Assembly: GCF_001571385.1 (NCBI RefSeq)
Contig: NZ_BCNW01000001.1
Coordinates: forward strand, 2,457,470-2,521,469
Reading direction: 5' to 3'
DNA: 64,000 bases
DNA from: Methanofollis ethanolicus
GTDB lineage: Archaea; Halobacteriota; Methanomicrobia; Methanomicrobiales; Methanofollaceae
In this document: in pieces, positions 3,552 through 49,820 of the stretch
Numbering within the stretch: position 1 is the stretch's first letter
Layout of the letters: the number at the start of each line of letters is the position of its first letter
Made by a program: the position numbers and the translations under genes
The notes under the pieces: model-generated
What the model was told of the DNA's origin: nothing
The model's input: only the letters and a program-made list of their open reading frames with translations
Databases searched by the model: none

Positions 3552-4069
3552 TGACAGGGGAAGAGTGGGTCTGCACACCTGGGAGGGCGGCCCCCTCCCG
3601 CCAGGCCGGAAACACCCGGGATTTCCGGAATGCAGCCGATTTCCACTCGCACTCCCTCCCCCACCCCGGCCTCTCCCGCGGCCGGGAAGGAGAGGCATTA
3701 CCTGCACGCATACCGGCGACCAGAGGGGCAGGGGAGGGGGCGGAATATCCTGCATTTTTCGAGATCTGCCCACCATCGCCTGATTTCCGGATCTCGCCAT
3801 TCCGGGCCCGGGTCCGGGGGGTGGCTCCCTGATCGGGGGGCTGTACGGGCGTATCCGGGTCGGGGTCCCCTCGGGGAGGGGGGTCTCCCGGAGCAGACCG
3901 CACCGGCCGGCACCGGTGCCGGAGCGCCGGGGAGAAGGGACGAGAGGGCGCCCCCATGCGCCTTTCCCCTTCTGAATCTGTTTAACTCTCCCCATTTTCA
4001 GGAAAAAATGCACATCTTTATGGATCGACACGAGAAAATGAGAGCGCGATCTATCGGGAGTACCACACC
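3552..4069. repeat. Family B intergenic repeat, copy 1 (3590-3870)
   Basis: No gene is recognisable between the HEPN remnant and manC. Most of the stretch is a GC-rich repeat whose elements recur at about 7960-8310 and 10500-10760: a 'gcattacctgcacgcatac'-like block, a GGGCGG-A/T-ATN2TG block near 3741 and a terminal 'acgggcgtat' block near 3846. This copy is the most diverged of the three. All three copies lie in gene-free stretches. Confidence 0.55.
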
Positions 4070-5410
4070 ATGAAGACGATCATCCTTGCCGGCGGTTCGG
4101 GCACCCGCCTCTTCCCCCTGAGCCGGACCTGCTACCCGAAACAGTTCATCCCCCTCTTCGAGAACGAGTCCCTCTTCCAGAAGGCGGTGAGGCGGGCCCT
4201 CCTCTTCTCACGGCCCGAGGAGGTGTACGTCGTCACCAACGAGGCGCACCGCTTCCTGGTGGCGGACCAGCTCGCGGCGATCTCTGCCTGCTGCCAGGTC
4301 CTCGTCGAGCCTGCCGGGAAAAACACCCTCCCCGCGATCGTCTACGGCATGACGGCCCTGGAGGAGGGGACGGTCGCGGTCCTCCCCTCCGACCAGCTGA
4401 TCACCCCGGACGAGGGGTACAAGGCAGCTTTTCATGCGGCCGAGGCCCTCGCCAGGGACCACCTGGTCACCTTCGGGATCACGCCGACCTCCCCGCACAC
4501 GGGCTACGGCTATATCCGGCCCGGCGAAGTTCTCCCCGGCGGCTATGCCGTCGACGCCTTCGTCGAGAAGCCAGACCTGGAGACCGCGGAGAGGTATGTC
4601 CGGGAGGGCTATCTCTGGAACTCAGGCATGTTCCTCTTCTCCTCTGCGCTCTTCATGGAGGAGTGCCGGCGCCTGGCGCCGGCCGTGGCAGAGGCCTTCG
4701 CCCTCCCTGTGGAGGAGGCGTATGCAAAGACCCCGAAGGTCTCGATCGACTACGGCCTCATGGAGAAGACCGACCGGGCTGCGGTCGTGCCCCTGGCCTG
4801 TTCATGGAGCGACATCGGGAGCTTCGACGCCCTGTACCAGGTGAGTGAGAAGGACGGGGACGGCAATGTCGTGAAGGGGGAGTACATCGGCCTCAGGAGC
4901 GCGAACAACCTGGTCATCTCCGACCGCCTGGTGGCGACGATCGGCCTCTCCGACCTCGCGGTCGTCGACACCCCGGACGCCCTCCTGGTCTGCCCGAAGG
5001 CAGAGGCCCAGCACGTCGGCGAGGTCACCGCCCTCCTGAAGGAGAGGGGCGACGGCCGCTGCGACCTCCACACCACTGTCCACCGGCCCTGGGGCTCGTA
5101 CACCGTCCTCCTCCAGGGCGACTCCTTCCAGATCAAGCGCCTCACCGTCCTCCCGGGCCGCCGCCTCTCGGCCCAGCTCCACCACCATCGGAGCGAGCAC
5201 TGGGTGGTCGTCCGCGGCATGGCCGGGGTCTCCAATGACGGCGAACAGTTTTTTGTCAGGCCGGGGGAGAGCACCTTTGTCCCGGCCGGGGTGCGGCACC
5301 GCCTGGAGAACCCCGGACTGATCCCCCTCGAAGTGATCGAGGTGCAGAACGGCGAATACATCACCGAGGACGATATCGTCCGCTTCGACGACGACTTCAA
5401 GAGGGAGTGA
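4070..5410 (+). CDS. manC: Mannose-1-phosphate guanylyltransferase / mannose-6-phosphate isomerase
   Basis: A 446-residue bifunctional enzyme. The N-terminal nucleotidyltransferase domain (about 1-330) opens with the GGSGTRLFPLSR signature and PKQF, and contains FVEKPDLETAERY; it makes GDP-mannose from mannose-1-phosphate and GTP. The C-terminal cupin (about 345-440) has the PWGSY and QLHHHRSEHW metal-site motifs of type II phosphomannose isomerase. The length is typical of ManC/CpsB. It lies between two gene-free stretches, apparently as a single transcription unit, and would feed GDP-mannose to the surface-glycan locus that starts 5.5 kb downstream. The first 36 bp recur at 10934. Confidence 0.95.
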   Translation: MKTIILAGGSGTRLFPLSRTCYPKQFIPLFENESLFQKAVRRALLFSRPEEVYVVTNEAHRFLVADQLAAISACCQVLVEPAGKNTLPAIVYGMTALEEGTVAVLPSDQLITPDEGYKAAFHAAEALARDHLVTFGITPTSPHTGYGYIRPGEVLPGGYAVDAFVEKPDLETAERYVREGYLWNSGMFLFSSALFMEECRRLAPAVAEAFALPVEEAYAKTPKVSIDYGLMEKTDRAAVVPLACSWSDIGSFDALYQVSEKDGDGNVVKGEYIGLRSANNLVISDRLVATIGLSDLAVVDTPDALLVCPKAEAQHVGEVTALLKERGDGRCDLHTTVHRPWGSYTVLLQGDSFQIKRLTVLPGRRLSAQLHHHRSEHWVVVRGMAGVSNDGEQFFVRPGESTFVPAGVRHRLENPGLIPLEVIEVQNGEYITEDDIVRFDDDFKRE

Positions 5411-44102: not shown

Positions 44103-44316
44103 CAGATGCCCGGTGGGCGGCGGGAAGATAGAAAGGTTGCGAAGGGGTGCGCGGGCAGAGAGGGATGATCGATATGCGGAAACCTCCGGGGCGGGACATG
44201 ACCCACAACAGGGAGATGCAGGGAATCCATGCAGGTTCCGCTGGAAAAAAGGAAGAGACAGGGTCGGGAACGGTACAGCAACAATCCAATGAGAGGGGGA
44301 GTGCCGGGAGAAGATC

Positions 44317-44469
44317 ATGACAATAGGAGACATTCAGGGACTGCAGGCAATGTGCAGTATCTGTCAGGGAAAAATGACCATTACCACATGCAGGAATGAC
44401 CAGCAATACAAAAAAACACTCCTGAAGAACTCGATAATGAGACAGATATCTAAAAATAAATACAAATAA
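44317..44469 (+). CDS. Small CxxC protein, hypothetical
   Basis: A 50-codon frame starting MTIGDIQGLQAMCSICQGKM and ending RQISKNKYK, with a GGGAGAAGATC sequence right before the ATG and a CSIC pair at residues 13-16. The 5' half is GC-balanced and the 3' half AT-rich and basic. It lies alone upstream of the TasA-like gene. Coding status is unproven. Confidence 0.35.
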   Translation: MTIGDIQGLQAMCSICQGKMTITTCRNDQQYKKTLLKNSIMRQISKNKYK

Positions 44470-44504
44470 AAAAATTAAACTTTTTTAAGAGATACAAATA
44501 ATAA

Positions 44505-44514
44505 CATATAAATA
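44505..44514 (+). promoter_or_regulatory. Box-A-like promoter of the TasA/SipW cluster
   Basis: 'catataaata' lies about 80 bp before the TasA-like start inside a strongly AT-rich 44420-44530 stretch; spacing predicts a leader of about 50 nt with an AGGAGGATC ribosome-binding site at 44570. The rest of 44103-44586 shows no other feature apart from the small frame at 44317. Confidence 0.45.
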
Positions 44515-44586
44515 TCATATCACGTTAATAATCGGCCGTCATATAGACTGCACCCGGAATGTGCAGATCAGGAGGATCAAGAATCT

Positions 44587-45252
44587 ATGAAATCAAGAGT
44601 ATTGTACGGAGTCATGGGCATAGCCCTGGTAGCGCTCTTCATCGGTGGCGGCACCTATGCGTACTTTAGCGACACGGAAACGAGCACAGGGAACACCTTC
44701 AGCGCCGGGACGCTGAACCTGAGCGTCGGGAGCGACAGCACCCTGCCGTTCGCCTTCGACAACCTGAAACCAGGGGATACAGGAGTCCTGGCAGACCCCT
44801 GGCGGATCAACAACACCGGCACCATCGCCGGGAACCTCACAATCACGTGCGGGGAGATCATCAACAACGAGAACGGGCTGACAGAGCCCGAAGAGAGTGT
44901 GGACTTCACTGGCGGCGTGCTTGAAGGCGAGCTCGGCGCAAACCTCACGGTGGCGTTCTGGATCGACAGCAACGCCAACAACACCCTGGATACAGGGGAC
45001 TATTACCTCCGTGTAGATGGTGACAGGATAGAGTTCAACAACGAGGAAAACGCGCTTCCCGACGATGCCTTCGCACCCCTGAACGAGTACAGCGAAAAGA
45101 GCTGGGCCAACCTGGCGACCATCGCCGGAGGGGCGTCGGCAGGCACATTCCATGTGGAGTATGACCTCCCCGGCCCGACGACCGGGAACGACGTCCAGAG
45201 CGACACCTGCACCTTCGACCTCATCTTCAAGCTTGAACAGGCACGCACGTAA
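44587..45252 (+). CDS. TasA/camelysin-like secreted protein
   Basis: A 221-residue protein with a SipW-type signal: VLYGVMGIALVALFIGGGTY then AYFSDTETSTGNTFSAGTLN. The mature part has the TasA-family phrases LKPGDTGVLADPWRINNTGT and ANLTVAFWIDSNANNTLDTG. TasA proteins polymerise into extracellular fibres in Bacillus biofilms, and archaeal relatives form threads. The next gene encodes a matching signal peptidase, 35 bp away. Fibre formation here is inferred. Confidence 0.85.
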   Translation: MKSRVLYGVMGIALVALFIGGGTYAYFSDTETSTGNTFSAGTLNLSVGSDSTLPFAFDNLKPGDTGVLADPWRINNTGTIAGNLTITCGEIINNENGLTEPEESVDFTGGVLEGELGANLTVAFWIDSNANNTLDTGDYYLRVDGDRIEFNNEENALPDDAFAPLNEYSEKSWANLATIAGGASAGTFHVEYDLPGPTTGNDVQSDTCTFDLIFKLEQART

Positions 45253-45287
45253 TCCGAACCCCATTTCAGGGCCAGAGGAAGAATAAA

Positions 45288-45770
45288 ATGCACCCCCTTG
45301 CCGGAAGGGCCTGCACGGCCCTCCTTGTCGTAGCCGCCCTCGTCGTCGTCGCCGCAGTCCTTGCGGGCTGGCAGGTCGAGGTCGTGCTCTCCGGGAGCAT
45401 GGAACCGGCAATCCCGGTCGGCGGGGTGGTGGTGACCGCCCCTGTCTCCCCAGAGGATGTGCGGGCAGGCGACATCATCACCTTCAGCTCGGGCGGGCAC
45501 CATGTCACCCACCGGGTGACCGCGGTGGTGGAGGGGCCGACGGCCGGTTTCATCACCCGCGGCGACGCCAACGAGGACGCAGACCCCGTGCCGGTAGCGG
45601 CCGGGGACGTCGTCGGCAGGGCCCTCTTCTCCCTCCCCTTCCTTGGTTACCTTGCCGTCTTCGTCAGGACGCCGGCCGGGTTCTTCCTCACTCTCCTCGT
45701 CCCCGGCCTCGTCCTTGTCGCCCTGGAGGTGCAGACCCTCAGGGGAAAACACAGCGAGAGGGAGGGATAA
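45288..45770 (+). CDS. Signal peptidase I, SipW/ER type
   Basis: A 160-residue membrane protease. An N-terminal TM helix (residues 11-27) precedes the catalytic serine in VVLSGSMEPAIPVGGVVV (S37); the second catalytic residue is H75 in HHVTHRV rather than lysine, the ER/archaeal/SipW type. A second TM helix pair lies near the C-terminus (TPAGFFLTLLVPGLVLVALE). Its location between the TasA-like gene and other exported proteins indicates a dedicated peptidase. Confidence 0.9.
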   Translation: MHPLAGRACTALLVVAALVVVAAVLAGWQVEVVLSGSMEPAIPVGGVVVTAPVSPEDVRAGDIITFSSGGHHVTHRVTAVVEGPTAGFITRGDANEDADPVPVAAGDVVGRALFSLPFLGYLAVFVRTPAGFFLTLLVPGLVLVALEVQTLRGKHSEREG

Positions 45771-45773
45771 GTC

Positions 45774-47252
45774 ATGGGAGAGTGGCGGGGGGTGCTGACG
45801 GCCACGGTCCTTCTCCTCCTCCTTGCCGGGGGGTGCTGGACAGTTGAAGGACTCTTCTTCGACCAGGAGGACACAGGAACGTCCACCTTCGCCGCGTACG
45901 TGCCCGGACTCTGGGAGCAGACCGCCAGGGCAGACTTCGAGGACGGCACCGCCGACGGGGTTGCGGTCTCGCCCACCGGCGACGTCGCCCTTGCCGCCGG
46001 CGGCGGGAGTTTCATGCTCTTCTGGGAGGACGAGACGGTCCCGGAGAACTGGACCTCTGTCTCCAACGAAGGAGGGGAGTACTACCACCGCTTCCCCCGC
46101 GGTGCGGCAGAATATGGCGGTGAGGGAGGTACGGAGAACCACACCCACACCGGAGATGCGGCATGCTCCGGGCCGTCAGAAACAATGATCCGATGGTGGT
46201 GGTTCCTTGCCTGGTCCATAATATCCTGTGCCTCCCCTGACCACGAACACACTGTCACCGCGACCGTCGCCAATGCCTCCCACCTCCCCCCGTATCGCGA
46301 CTTCAAGATCATCAGGTACGACGGCGGCGCCCCCTGCATCATCCCTGCCGGGGCGATCGGGATCTTCGAGGGCCTGCCGACGAGGGACTGGGGGCAGGCG
46401 TACGGGGATGATCGCTACCTCAGGGGCGGGGCCGTGACGGGTACGGGGGGATCGCAGGACCACACCCACGAGGTCACAGTCACGGCCGGGGGGTTTTCGG
46501 AGTGGGTCGAGGCCCGTGTCCAGTTGTTGCTCGGCGGAAAGGATATCAAGATCACAGGGCCGGACCACATCCACAATGTCACGGCAACGATGACTGCGGC
46601 AGAAAACAAACCTCCCTTCATCACGGTGCGGTTGGGGCGGGCAGAAAATGACACCCCGGTCCCTGCCGGCCTCATTGCCATGCATGACAGTGATCCGGGG
46701 GAAGGGTGGAGCGTCGTCTCCGACTTCGAAGAGCGACTTCTCAGGGATACCGGGGAGTTCGGGGAGACAGGTGGGGACGAAACCCACACCCATACCGATA
46801 TGACAGTCAGAACCGGTGGCCCGGCCCCGATTGGCGTCGAAGAGATCGCTGCAGAATGGGATGAAAGGACAGAGGTCGCGGACACAACTCACACCCACAC
46901 TCTCGACCTCTCCTTCGACAATGCGACCTCCCTCCCCCCGTACAGAGACACCATCTTTGCACGGGCAGAATATGTCTCATCGGGCACCCTCGAAAGCCCG
47001 GTCTTCGATACCGGGATCGCAGGCGCCACCTGGAACGCCTTTTTCTGGGACGAGACGACAGAGGACGGAGTGACAGGGATCGAGATGGCGGTCAGGGCGT
47101 CCGACGCCCCCTTCGAAGAGAGCGACGCCGGTTGGACTGACCCGACCGACGGCCTCCCGAAAGGGCGTTACATGCAGTGGAGGGCAACGCTGACCACGAC
47201 GGACAGCACACAGACCCCGGTCCTCCACGCGGTGCGGGTGTATTACTACTGA
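45774..47252 (+). CDS. Secreted protein with three 108-residue HxH repeats
   Basis: A 492-residue protein with a SipW-like N-terminal helix (GVLTATVLLLLLAGG). Residues 85-400 hold three tandem repeats; each has two HxH motifs: H123/H125 and H157/H159, H230/H232 and H265/H267, H338/H340 and H373/H375. Corresponding motifs are 107-108 residues apart. Around them recur GG(S/D)-x-H-T-H and (D/T)H-x-H-x-(V/L) with LPPYRD. HxH pairs coordinate iron in phage T4 tail-fibre trimers, so a metal-stabilised fibre is a reasonable guess. The C-terminal 90 residues form a separate beta domain. No known family is assigned. It starts 3 bp after the peptidase gene. Confidence 0.75.
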   Translation: MGEWRGVLTATVLLLLLAGGCWTVEGLFFDQEDTGTSTFAAYVPGLWEQTARADFEDGTADGVAVSPTGDVALAAGGGSFMLFWEDETVPENWTSVSNEGGEYYHRFPRGAAEYGGEGGTENHTHTGDAACSGPSETMIRWWWFLAWSIISCASPDHEHTVTATVANASHLPPYRDFKIIRYDGGAPCIIPAGAIGIFEGLPTRDWGQAYGDDRYLRGGAVTGTGGSQDHTHEVTVTAGGFSEWVEARVQLLLGGKDIKITGPDHIHNVTATMTAAENKPPFITVRLGRAENDTPVPAGLIAMHDSDPGEGWSVVSDFEERLLRDTGEFGETGGDETHTHTDMTVRTGGPAPIGVEEIAAEWDERTEVADTTHTHTLDLSFDNATSLPPYRDTIFARAEYVSSGTLESPVFDTGIAGATWNAFFWDETTEDGVTGIEMAVRASDAPFEESDAGWTDPTDGLPKGRYMQWRATLTTTDSTQTPVLHAVRVYYY

Positions 47253-47262
47253 GGGATGAAAG

Positions 47263-48333
47263 ATGGAGACGACTGCAACAGACAGGAACAGACTGGTGAT
47301 GGTGGCCATGCTCTGCCCCCTCCTCGTCGCCGCGGCCCTGGGAGCGGCCGTCGACCTCACCCTCGACGGCCCCGGGGCGGGGGGCATGGCCTTCCCCGGC
47401 CTCAAGCCCGGCGACACCGGCACCACGACCGTACTCCTCCATAATGCCGGTAGCGAAGGCGGCAGCGTCGCCGTCTGGATCTCCGACATCACGGAGACGG
47501 ACGCGAGGGCTGACGGCGCCAGGCTCGACACCTACCTCCTCTTCTCCCTCTCGAACGAGAGGCTTGCATCCACCCTCGACCTGCCCGCACCCATCACCTC
47601 CTTCCCGCAGGGACCGGGCGGCAGTCCCGCCGTCACCGTGACGCATCTGGAGGCCGGCGCGACCACCGCACTCGTCTGGCACTGGGATTTCAGGGAGACC
47701 GGGACCCCACAGGACGACGCCCAGGGCGACACACTCGCTTTCACCGTCCACTACACCCTCACCACCCTTCCCCCGGACGACACCGGCGGCGGGGGAGGAG
47801 GAGGGGGAGGACACAGGCATGTCCAGGCCTCCTCCGGGAGCCAGAGCGGGCAGCACTCCACACCCACAACCCTCCCGGAGGAGACCCGGACGATACCGAC
47901 AACAATCACCGGCGAGACGGCACCAGAGGACAGGATCCCCCTGCTCGAAGCCCTCCTCCTCATGCTCCTCATCGGGGGCATGGTCAGGCTGCGGCACGAG
48001 CCCTCCAGAGTGCTGAAGGTGGCGGCCGCCGCCGGCATATTCCTCCTCCTCGTTGCCGCGCTCCCCATTGACTACAGGGTTCTCTGCTGCGTGCAGCCGC
48101 CCGGCATCCTCCTCGCCGCCGCGGCACCCCTCATCCCGGTCGCCGCCGGCCTGCTCAGTCAGCGGCAGCCGACGACCCGCACCCTCTGGGCAGGGGAGTA
48201 CACTCTTCTCTTTCTCTCGGTGGCAGCAGGCTTCGGCCTCCTCACCCTCGGCGCCGGCCCCCTGGGAAGTCTCCTTGGCCTGGCCGCCGTCTACCTCGTC
48301 ACCCTCGGTGTCGTCCTCATCATGGAGAGGTAA
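47263..48333 (+). CDS. TasA-like ectodomain protein with multi-TM anchor
   Basis: A 356-residue protein. After an N-terminal helix (LVMVAMLCPLLVAAALGAAV) comes a TasA-like domain (FPGLKPGDTGTTTVLLHNAG, ALVWHWDFRETGTPQDDAQG), then a nine-glycine run and a Ser/Thr/Pro-rich linker (about 180-225), and finally six or so hydrophobic helices (about 230-352). It probably anchors or nucleates the extracellular assembly made by the preceding genes. It is the last gene of the cluster, 10 bp after the HxH-repeat gene. Confidence 0.75.
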   Translation: METTATDRNRLVMVAMLCPLLVAAALGAAVDLTLDGPGAGGMAFPGLKPGDTGTTTVLLHNAGSEGGSVAVWISDITETDARADGARLDTYLLFSLSNERLASTLDLPAPITSFPQGPGGSPAVTVTHLEAGATTALVWHWDFRETGTPQDDAQGDTLAFTVHYTLTTLPPDDTGGGGGGGGGHRHVQASSGSQSGQHSTPTTLPEETRTIPTTITGETAPEDRIPLLEALLLMLLIGGMVRLRHEPSRVLKVAAAAGIFLLLVAALPIDYRVLCCVQPPGILLAAAAPLIPVAAGLLSQRQPTTRTLWAGEYTLLFLSVAAGFGLLTLGAGPLGSLLGLAAVYLVTLGVVLIMER

Positions 48334-48425: not shown

Positions 48426-49820
48426 ATGAGTCTTGAGAGGGATGTATCAGCGGCCGCCGGGCGGATCCGCGAGGCCGACCGGGTGACGGTCATCTCGCAC
48501 ATCGACGCCGACGGGATCACCAGCCTCTCGATCCTGATGCAGGCGATCACTCGCGCCGGGATCGAGGCGGTGCCCGTCTTCGTGCGGCAGCTCGAGCCGC
48601 TGATGATGCACCACGTCCCGCAGGACGACACACTGAAGGTCTTCTCCGACCTCGGGGCCGGGCAGCAGAACCTCCTGGAGGAGCACGGCCTTGCCGAGGA
48701 CAGGGTCGTGATCATCGATCACCACGTCTCGCAGGACGTGAAGACGCCCTACATGCAGGTGAATGCCCTGCCGTACGGCCACACGAAGTTCTCAGCCGCG
48801 GGGGCGGCGTACCTCGTCGCCCGGGCCATCGACGACGACACCCACGACCTCGCAAAGCTTGCCGTGATCGGGAATGTCGGCGACATGATGGCCAGGGAAG
48901 ACTGCGGGCTCATCGGGCCGGCACGGGCGATCGCCGACGACGGAATCGAGTACGGGAATGTCGAGGCGCAGCGCGACCTCAACTGCTACGGCATCTCCAC
49001 CCGCCCCCTGAACCTCTGCCTCGCCTACACCGACGACCCCTTCATCGAGGGGATCACCAACAACCCGGCAGGGGCGAGAAGGCTCCTTGCGTCCCTCGGC
49101 ATACCGGAGAGGACGCGGGAAGGGCGGTGGCGGGTCTGGGAGGACCTGGACGCCGCCGAAAAGCAGGCGGTCTGCTCGGCCCTTGCAGAACAGATCGTCG
49201 CCCACGGCGGCGACGCCGGGAGACTCTGCGCCGAGGTCTACCTCTTCCCCGACGAGGCCGGGGGGACGGCCCTGCACAATGCCTCCGAGTTCTCGACCCT
49301 CCTCAATGCCTGCGGCAGGTGGGCCCGCCCTGCGGTCGGGAGCGCGATCTGCGCCGGCGACCGGGCCGAAGCCCTCAGGGAGGCCGGGCAGATGCTCACC
49401 CAGCATCGGGCGACGATCCGGGAGATCCTCACCTACATCCTCACCACCGGCGTCCGGGAACTCGACGCCATCCAGTACCTCCATGTCGGGGACAGGTTCC
49501 CCGACACCATCGTCGGGATCGGCGCGGGTATGGCCCTCTCGAAACTCGGCCGTGAGAAACCGATCCTCATCATGTGCACTCTCCCCGACGATCCCGCCCT
49601 CACCAAGGTCTCCATGCGGGCCGACGACAGGATGGTCGGCGCCGGCATCGACCTTCAGGCGGCCCTCATCGAGGCCGCCGGGCCCTTCGGCGGGGCGGCA
49701 GGGGGGCACGCCATCGCCGCGGGGGCATATATCCCGAAAACAGCAGAACAGGAGTTTGTACACCGTGTCAACCAGTGCATCAAGAGACAGCGCGGAGCGG
49801 CAGGTCAGGGCGATTGCTGA
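48426..49820 (+). CDS. recJ: RecJ-like single-strand exonuclease (DHH family)
   Basis: A 464-residue DHH phosphoesterase: VISHIDADGITSLSILMQAI (motif I), FSDLGAGQQNLLEE (motif II), VVIIDHHVSQDVKTPYM (DHH) and IGNVGDMMAREDCGL (motif IV). The C-terminal DHHA1 domain includes AAGGHAIAAGAYIP with the RNA/DNA-binding GGH. Archaeal RecJ homologues associate with the replisome (GAN) or act in repair. It overlaps the PUA gene by 56 bp. A TTATATC box-A-like element is about 35 bp upstream. Confidence 0.92.
   Translation: MSLERDVSAAAGRIREADRVTVISHIDADGITSLSILMQAITRAGIEAVPVFVRQLEPLMMHHVPQDDTLKVFSDLGAGQQNLLEEHGLAEDRVVIIDHHVSQDVKTPYMQVNALPYGHTKFSAAGAAYLVARAIDDDTHDLAKLAVIGNVGDMMAREDCGLIGPARAIADDGIEYGNVEAQRDLNCYGISTRPLNLCLAYTDDPFIEGITNNPAGARRLLASLGIPERTREGRWRVWEDLDAAEKQAVCSALAEQIVAHGGDAGRLCAEVYLFPDEAGGTALHNASEFSTLLNACGRWARPAVGSAICAGDRAEALREAGQMLTQHRATIREILTYILTTGVRELDAIQYLHVGDRFPDTIVGIGAGMALSKLGREKPILIMCTLPDDPALTKVSMRADDRMVGAGIDLQAALIEAAGPFGGAAGGHAIAAGAYIPKTAEQEFVHRVNQCIKRQRGAAGQGDC

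Follow-up and report, generated by a model that had tools for sequence, protein, structure and literature searches.

A four-gene cluster of Methanofollis ethanolicus predicted to encode a TasA-type surface fibre with a membrane base and a module-bearing tip

A stretch of 64,000 nucleotides from the methanogenic archaeon Methanofollis ethanolicus (contig NZ_BCNW01000001.1, positions 2,457,470 to 2,521,469; hereafter the window) contains a cluster of four open reading frames, ORF1 to ORF4. From the homology and synteny of the four genes, the segments that are present or missing in their products, the membrane helices and the swapping of modules, we infer, with a probability of roughly 60%, that they encode a TasA-type surface fibre built by donor-strand exchange, of which both ends are specified. 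In this fibre ORF1 would form the chain, ORF3 would be the tip and the initiator, and ORF4 would be the base. ORF2 is a signal peptidase. It is unsettled how TasA-type fibres are held at the cell and in which direction they run, and the ORF3/ORF4 pair addresses both points.

Results

ORF1 is a member of the TasA family, not TasA itself. It matches PF12389 with 56.4 bits (E-value 4.8e-15; gathering cut-off 22.5), in a match confined to residues 2-80, which comprise the signal and the N-terminal part, and it scores 41.5 bits with TIGR04088, the model of SipW-dependent signals, over a cut-off of 19. The match to TasA in the Protein Data Bank (PDB-id 8aur) has an E-value of 1.3e-6, and its alignment runs onward from the Phe of the donor strand; residues 26-40 of ORF1 (YFSDTETSTGNTFSA) align with the TasA donor strand FNDIKSKDATF. 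These three lines of evidence agree with a preliminary description of the locus, in which the first protein was called TasA-like. With the TasA equivalog model NF046066, the score is 37.9 bits, below the cut-off of 450. ORF1 is the sole PF12389 gene found in the source genome, and across the genus the PF12389 matches are the ORF1 proteins of the cluster only.

ORF4 can be described as a TasA-like ectodomain on a membrane base. The family profiles of ORF1 and ORF4 match each other with an E-value of 8e-8, residues 41-217 of ORF1 falling on residues 27-168 of ORF4. When the model of the ORF4 ectodomain was searched with Foldseek, the TasA fibre 8aur was the only PDB match under an E-value of 0.001 (2.4e-5). 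VIA-align likewise placed 8aur first of 986, with ORF4 residues 28-177 on TasA residues 43-241 (Z 8.6, 4.1 Å over 139 residues), followed by TasA monomers at Z 8.4 and 8.2; the following rows have a Z of 7.0. A Z just above 8 is modest, and the sequence-profile match between ORF1 and ORF4 is an important support. The ectodomain scores 13.6 bits with PF12389, under the cut-off of 22.5, and the best relative seen reaches 21.1. The donor strand of TasA consists of residues 28-38 and inserts into the next subunit (PMC9674648). Since the match to ORF4 begins at TasA residue 43, ORF4 keeps the acceptor domain without the donor strand. Its ectodomain begins exactly at the end point of the TasA donor strand, and the signal peptide runs straight into VDLTL. 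The N-terminal profiles of TasA and of 14 ORF4 proteins align over the last seven residues only (AGTLNLS/GAAVDLT, score 15.9).

A signal peptide is present in all 14 ORF4 proteins, together with between one and five hydrophobic segments in the C-terminal region; ORF4 of the window has about five. The conserved core is the ectodomain plus membrane, not a six-helix base: the ectodomain was correctly recognised in the preliminary description, but the six helices assigned to its anchor include the signal peptide. The nine-glycine linker noted there is present at residues 175-183, but it is variable and is not conserved in the relatives. Of the two roles that had been offered for ORF4, anchor or nucleator, the first is supported by the TasA-fold ectodomain and by at least one C-terminal membrane helix in all relatives examined. 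The second is not, because ORF4 has no donor strand and the nucleator of the TasA system, TapA, gives the first donor strand.

ORF3 has the reverse composition, a donor-like segment and no TasA acceptor domain. Alignment of its relatives divides the protein into three parts, an N-terminal segment, a middle part that differs between relatives, and a conserved C-terminal domain of about 95 residues. The N-terminus has a hydrophobic stretch followed by two Phe residues in an F-x10-F arrangement with Asp, Glu and Thr between them, a Phe spacing as in TasA. The N-terminal family profiles of ORF3 and TasA match with an E-value of 4.4e-8 and a score of 40.9; 60 controls, made by shuffling the columns that follow the hydrophobic core, reached 26.7 at most. 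Searches of Pfam, NCBIfam and PDB sequences gave no family match for ORF3 of the window, the TapA family included, and its donor-like N-terminus is analogous. The structural model of ORF3 is poor overall, with a mean predicted local distance difference test score (pLDDT) of 38; that of the C-terminal domain is about 60-85. The model has no structural match in the PDB under an E-value of 0.001.

The middle part of ORF3 is swapped between genomes. It consists of three HxH repeats in G000, G009 and G010, and in the window the three repeats of about 107 residues hold six HxH motifs, as the preliminary name of HxH-repeat protein implied. DUF2341 takes their place in G001, G003, G005 and G006, Laminin_G_3 in G173, and kelch repeats in G164, G185 and G224, and the middle part is absent in G058 and in a metagenome-assembled genome (MAG) of Methanomassiliicoccus. 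In G173, G185, G172 and G164 the contigs break within or near ORF3, and the N- and C-terminal parts were assigned to one gene from the order at contig ends. By eye, the HxH repeats recall the metal-binding HxH motifs found at the tips of phage tail fibres. A phage tail-fibre origin, suspected from the PAG-x-I / HxH pattern, was not supported by the databases: when ORF3 was compared with 50,697 phage records by tblastn, the one match was weak and lay in the C-terminal domain only, and PHROGs gave nothing for ORF3. No ORF4 relative was found in the viral contigs searched.

ORF2 matches the archaeal signal peptidase I model TIGR02228 with 104.2 bits (E-value 5.8e-30; cut-off 51.85). Residues S37 and H75 are invariant across the family alignment, and such a Ser/His pair is usual for archaeal signal peptidases. 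The catalytic pair named in the preliminary description is thereby confirmed, but its label of SipW-type holds by association only, as the score with the SipW equivalog NF046067 is 97.2 bits against a cut-off of 190. One further signal peptidase I is encoded elsewhere in the source genome, at C1:247 kb, and ORF2 is therefore an extra, cluster-linked enzyme.

The four genes occur together. In Methanofollis, seven genomes have the set and five lack ORF1, ORF3 and ORF4 altogether (Fisher p 0.001, a rough figure that ignores relatedness); G001 is counted among the seven, its contig ending before ORF1 and its flanking DNA lying on another contig. The order TasA-peptidase-ORF3-ORF4 is conserved at two chromosomal sites. 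The first, in G000, G009 and G010, is between nnrD and recJ, which are adjacent (about 0.1-0.4 kb) in G011, G002, G004, G007, G008 and G005; the second, in G003, G005 and G006, is between trkA-like and transporter-like genes. Gene spacing is alike in each contiguous copy, and in all of these copies the last three genes adjoin or overlap. In a search across the class (232 genomes), strong relatives of ORF4 were confined to Methanofollis, G058 and five genomes of another family. The cluster also occurs in other Methanomicrobiales, where it is divided between contigs. Scanning 84,980 species genomes added the Methanomassiliicoccus MAG, in which the four genes are complete and in order, and a Dehalococcoidia MAG whose ORF4 lies at the edge of a contig. 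Transfer or repeated loss is suggested by the patchy spread and by the use of two insertion sites. Co-occurrence of the four genes in related genomes had been set beforehand as the point on which the idea of a self-contained assembly cluster could fail; set and order proved to be conserved, and the genes are present or absent together in Methanofollis, so that this idea is well supported.

Discussion

In the proposed mechanism, ORF1 and ORF3 would be exported as precursors and their signal peptides probably removed by ORF2, exposing N-terminal donor strands. ORF4 would be exported with an ordinary signal peptide. A TasA subunit extends its donor strand only after its own groove has been filled, and TapA gives the first strand (PMC9674648). 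ORF3, with a donor and without an acceptor, would initiate the chain, its donor strand being the first to enter an ORF1 subunit, and would be carried outward as the distal tip with its exchangeable module. ORF1, with both donor and acceptor, would form the chain. ORF4, with an acceptor and without a donor, would be held in the membrane and take the last donor strand, so that the chain would be ended and tied to the cell. Since ORF4 has membrane helices, its end would be the cell end, and ORF3 would be the outer end. ORF4 is thus predicted to be anchor and terminator, not nucleator, with ORF3 as initiator and tip. Adhesion may be mediated by the swapped modules of ORF3; the LamG and kelch domains are folds that commonly serve in binding.

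Several observations weigh against this scheme. None of nine ORF3 family members, that of the window included, matches TIGR04088, and the window ORF3 alone is not conspicuous in the N-terminal profile search, so that the putative donor segment of ORF3 is a family-level signal. The model of ORF4 is modest (mean pLDDT 55; ectodomain, residues ~30-172, mostly 70-90), and immunoglobulin-like folds match many structures at lower Z. In several relatives of ORF3, a Cys directly precedes the donor-like segment; this is not general, and it makes it possible that ORF3 is held at the cell surface by a lipid anchor, which would oppose a role at the tip.

Such a Cys is among the evidence for the best of the alternatives, in which ORF3 would be a cell-proximal initiator, TapA-like and associated with the wall or with lipid, and ORF4 a membrane chaperone that holds ORF1 subunits by their donor strands before release and does not anchor the fibre. 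TapA, which supplies the first donor strand, is described near the membrane (PMC9674648, PMC10151520), and CapP, a comparable protein, is chaperone-like and associated with the cell wall (PMC13082335). However, the Cys is not conserved in L109 or in the three relatives closest to ORF3 of the window, large exchangeable modules (LamG, kelch, HxH) would be odd for a buried base, and it is ORF4, not ORF3, that has membrane helices in all relatives. We consider this arrangement unlikely.

Somewhat less likely still, there would be no single fibre: ORF1 would make a simple TasA-like matrix fibre that is secreted, and the other two, ORF3 and ORF4, would be independent surface proteins, an adhesin and a receptor, merely co-transcribed with it. 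The Dehalococcoidia relative of ORF4, a long multidomain protein whose upstream genes are cut off, is in keeping with this. The donor and acceptor segments are, however, complementary in presence and absence between ORF3 and ORF4, the gene order is conserved across two archaeal phyla and the set is all-or-none in the genus, all of which argue against it. The idea suggested by the Pfam name of PF12389, Camelysin metallo-endopeptidase, that ORF1 is a metalloprotease of the camelysin type (family M73) and the cluster a secreted protease system, was rejected as very improbable in view of the structural matches to the TasA fibre and monomer and the restriction of the PF12389 match to the signal and N-terminal part.

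The proposed fibre with ORF3 at the tip and ORF4 at the base can be compared with known systems. The tapA-sipW-tasA operon of Bacillus subtilis likewise encodes a TasA-family subunit with a SipW-type signal, a Ser/His signal peptidase, and a protein that combines a donor-like N-terminus with a different body, TapA there and ORF3 here. It differs in gene order and, as described, has no membrane-anchored TasA-fold protein, and ORF3 has no detected similarity to TapA and carries exchangeable modules. The sipW-tasA-capP-calY genes of Bacillus cereus also provide TasA-family filaments, a dedicated peptidase and an assembly helper, but CapP is soluble or cell-wall-associated and chaperone-like, not a membrane TasA-fold protein (PMC13082335).

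TasA-like pili are already known in archaea: the bundling pili of Pyrobaculum calidifontis are reportedly TasA-like donor-strand pili. Their structure (PDB-id 7ueg) is among the structural matches to ORF4, at Z 6.1. For the threads of Sulfolobus, formed by Saci_0406, a co-expressed donor-only cap, Saci_0405, which lacks an acceptor site, has been proposed (PMC9715654), as is here for ORF3. Unlike the fibre predicted here, the thread has a subunit of a type-1-pilin-like family, and no membrane base was identified (PMC9715654). Gaines et al. stated the polarity of the thread as unknown and offered two hypotheses (PMC9715654); the polarity proposed here would correspond to their 'hypothesis 2', which they left open. 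Type 1 (chaperone-usher) pili share a donor-strand chain, a specialised adhesin and a terminator. In contrast to them, the cluster has no chaperone or usher and its acceptor-only subunit would sit at the base, not the tip, so that the donor strands would face the cell and the polarity would be reversed.

The balance leans slightly towards an archaeal usher-free donor-strand pilus, encoded in one four-gene operon, with an acceptor-only membrane base, a donor-only tip with interchangeable modules and a polarity opposite to that of type 1 pili. The combination of such a base and such a tip in one operon was not found in the literature searched, which did not include the P. calidifontis account, where an anchor may have been noticed earlier. 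If the proposal is true, the polarity would be decided for one type of fibre, including the question left open for archaeal threads, and the four proteins would be a minimal system for rebuilding. In digesters and sediments it is of importance how methanogens attach to surfaces and partners, and the fibre would also be a candidate organelle for such adhesion, its tip determining the specificity.

Features of the locus and additional observations

The four ORFs are all open and co-directional, with intergenic gaps of 35, 3 and 10 bp, and the cluster was found where the preliminary description had placed it (Table 1). The AT-rich region noted there was also recovered: windows of 300 bp over 44250-44699, just 5' of ORF1 and into it, have a G+C content of about 38%, against 0.6-0.7 around them, and the DNA upstream of ORF1 is kept in two relatives (L057, L058), including TAAATAT-like and GGAGGAT elements. 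The next gene downstream of ORF4 is a DHH/RecJ-like ORF that starts at 48426.

Table 1 Features of the cluster, in positions of the window.
Feature	Positions	Strand	Description	Basis
Upstream region	44440-44586	+	AT-rich, predicted promoter region and ribosome-binding site (AGGAGG)	G+C content, conservation
ORF1	44587-45252	+	TasA/camelysin-family fibre subunit, 221 residues	PF12389, PDB 8aur
ORF1 residues 26-40 (YFSDTETSTGNTFSA)	44662-44706	+	SipW-type cleavage region and predicted donor strand	Alignment with TasA, TIGR04088
ORF2	45288-45770	+	Cluster-dedicated archaeal-type signal peptidase I (S37, H75), 160 residues	TIGR02228, alignment
ORF3	45774-47252	+	Predicted donor-only tip/initiator, 492 residues; N-terminal segment, exchangeable middle, conserved C-terminal domain	
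ORF3 residues 27-42 (LFFDQEDTGTSTFAAY)	45852-45899	+	SipW-type/donor-strand-like segment	N-terminal profile comparison, Phe spacing
ORF3 middle module	46014-46970	+	Three repeats of about 107 residues with six HxH motifs	Other domains, or none, in relatives
ORF3 residues ~401-492	46974-47249	+	C-terminal beta domain, conserved family part	Alignment; pLDDT ~60-85
ORF4	47263-48333	+	Predicted acceptor-only membrane base, 356 residues	
ORF4 signal peptide	47296-47346	+	N-terminal, no SipW-type segment; taken for an anchor helix in the preliminary description	Hydropathy
ORF4 residues 28-172	47344-47778	+	TasA-like ectodomain without donor strand	8aur structural alignment, ORF1 profile match
ORF4 residues 225-355	47935-48327	+	C-terminal membrane domain, five hydrophobic segments	Hydropathy; helices in low-confidence part of model

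The records outside the main group, those of Methanomassiliicoccus and Dehalococcoidia, are both MAGs. The ORF4 relative of Methanomassiliicoccus (L094:7917-9542) has a CARDB domain and a single membrane helix, beyond which lies a cytoplasmic tail; by eye this tail is winged-helix-like, and it might link fibre attachment to regulation. Weak matches to the ORF4 profile also occur in other Halobacteriota; those that were opened have full TasA-type N-termini and were set aside as ordinary camelysins, not ORF4 orthologues. TasA-like genes in tandem, some of them next to a signal peptidase, are found in L131, L132, L133, L136 and L142 of other Halobacteriota, with no ORF3 or ORF4 match within the short loci searched. 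L066:4832-8087 (G041, another family) has another arrangement, in which a TasA-like gene is accompanied by two signal peptidases and a 344-residue membrane protein, and ORF3 and ORF4 are lacking.

At the second cluster site, G002, G004 and G007 have ORFs of about 77-88 residues (L172:8941-9069, L173:2331-2459 and L174:8779-8880) that keep both membrane ends of the ORF2 peptidase without its catalytic middle; these may be what is left of a lost cluster, or else small proteins that are conserved. In G011, a contig end beside the second site (L182, ~3900-4188) carries tandem repeats that encode EHEKISDLRCASS-like units.

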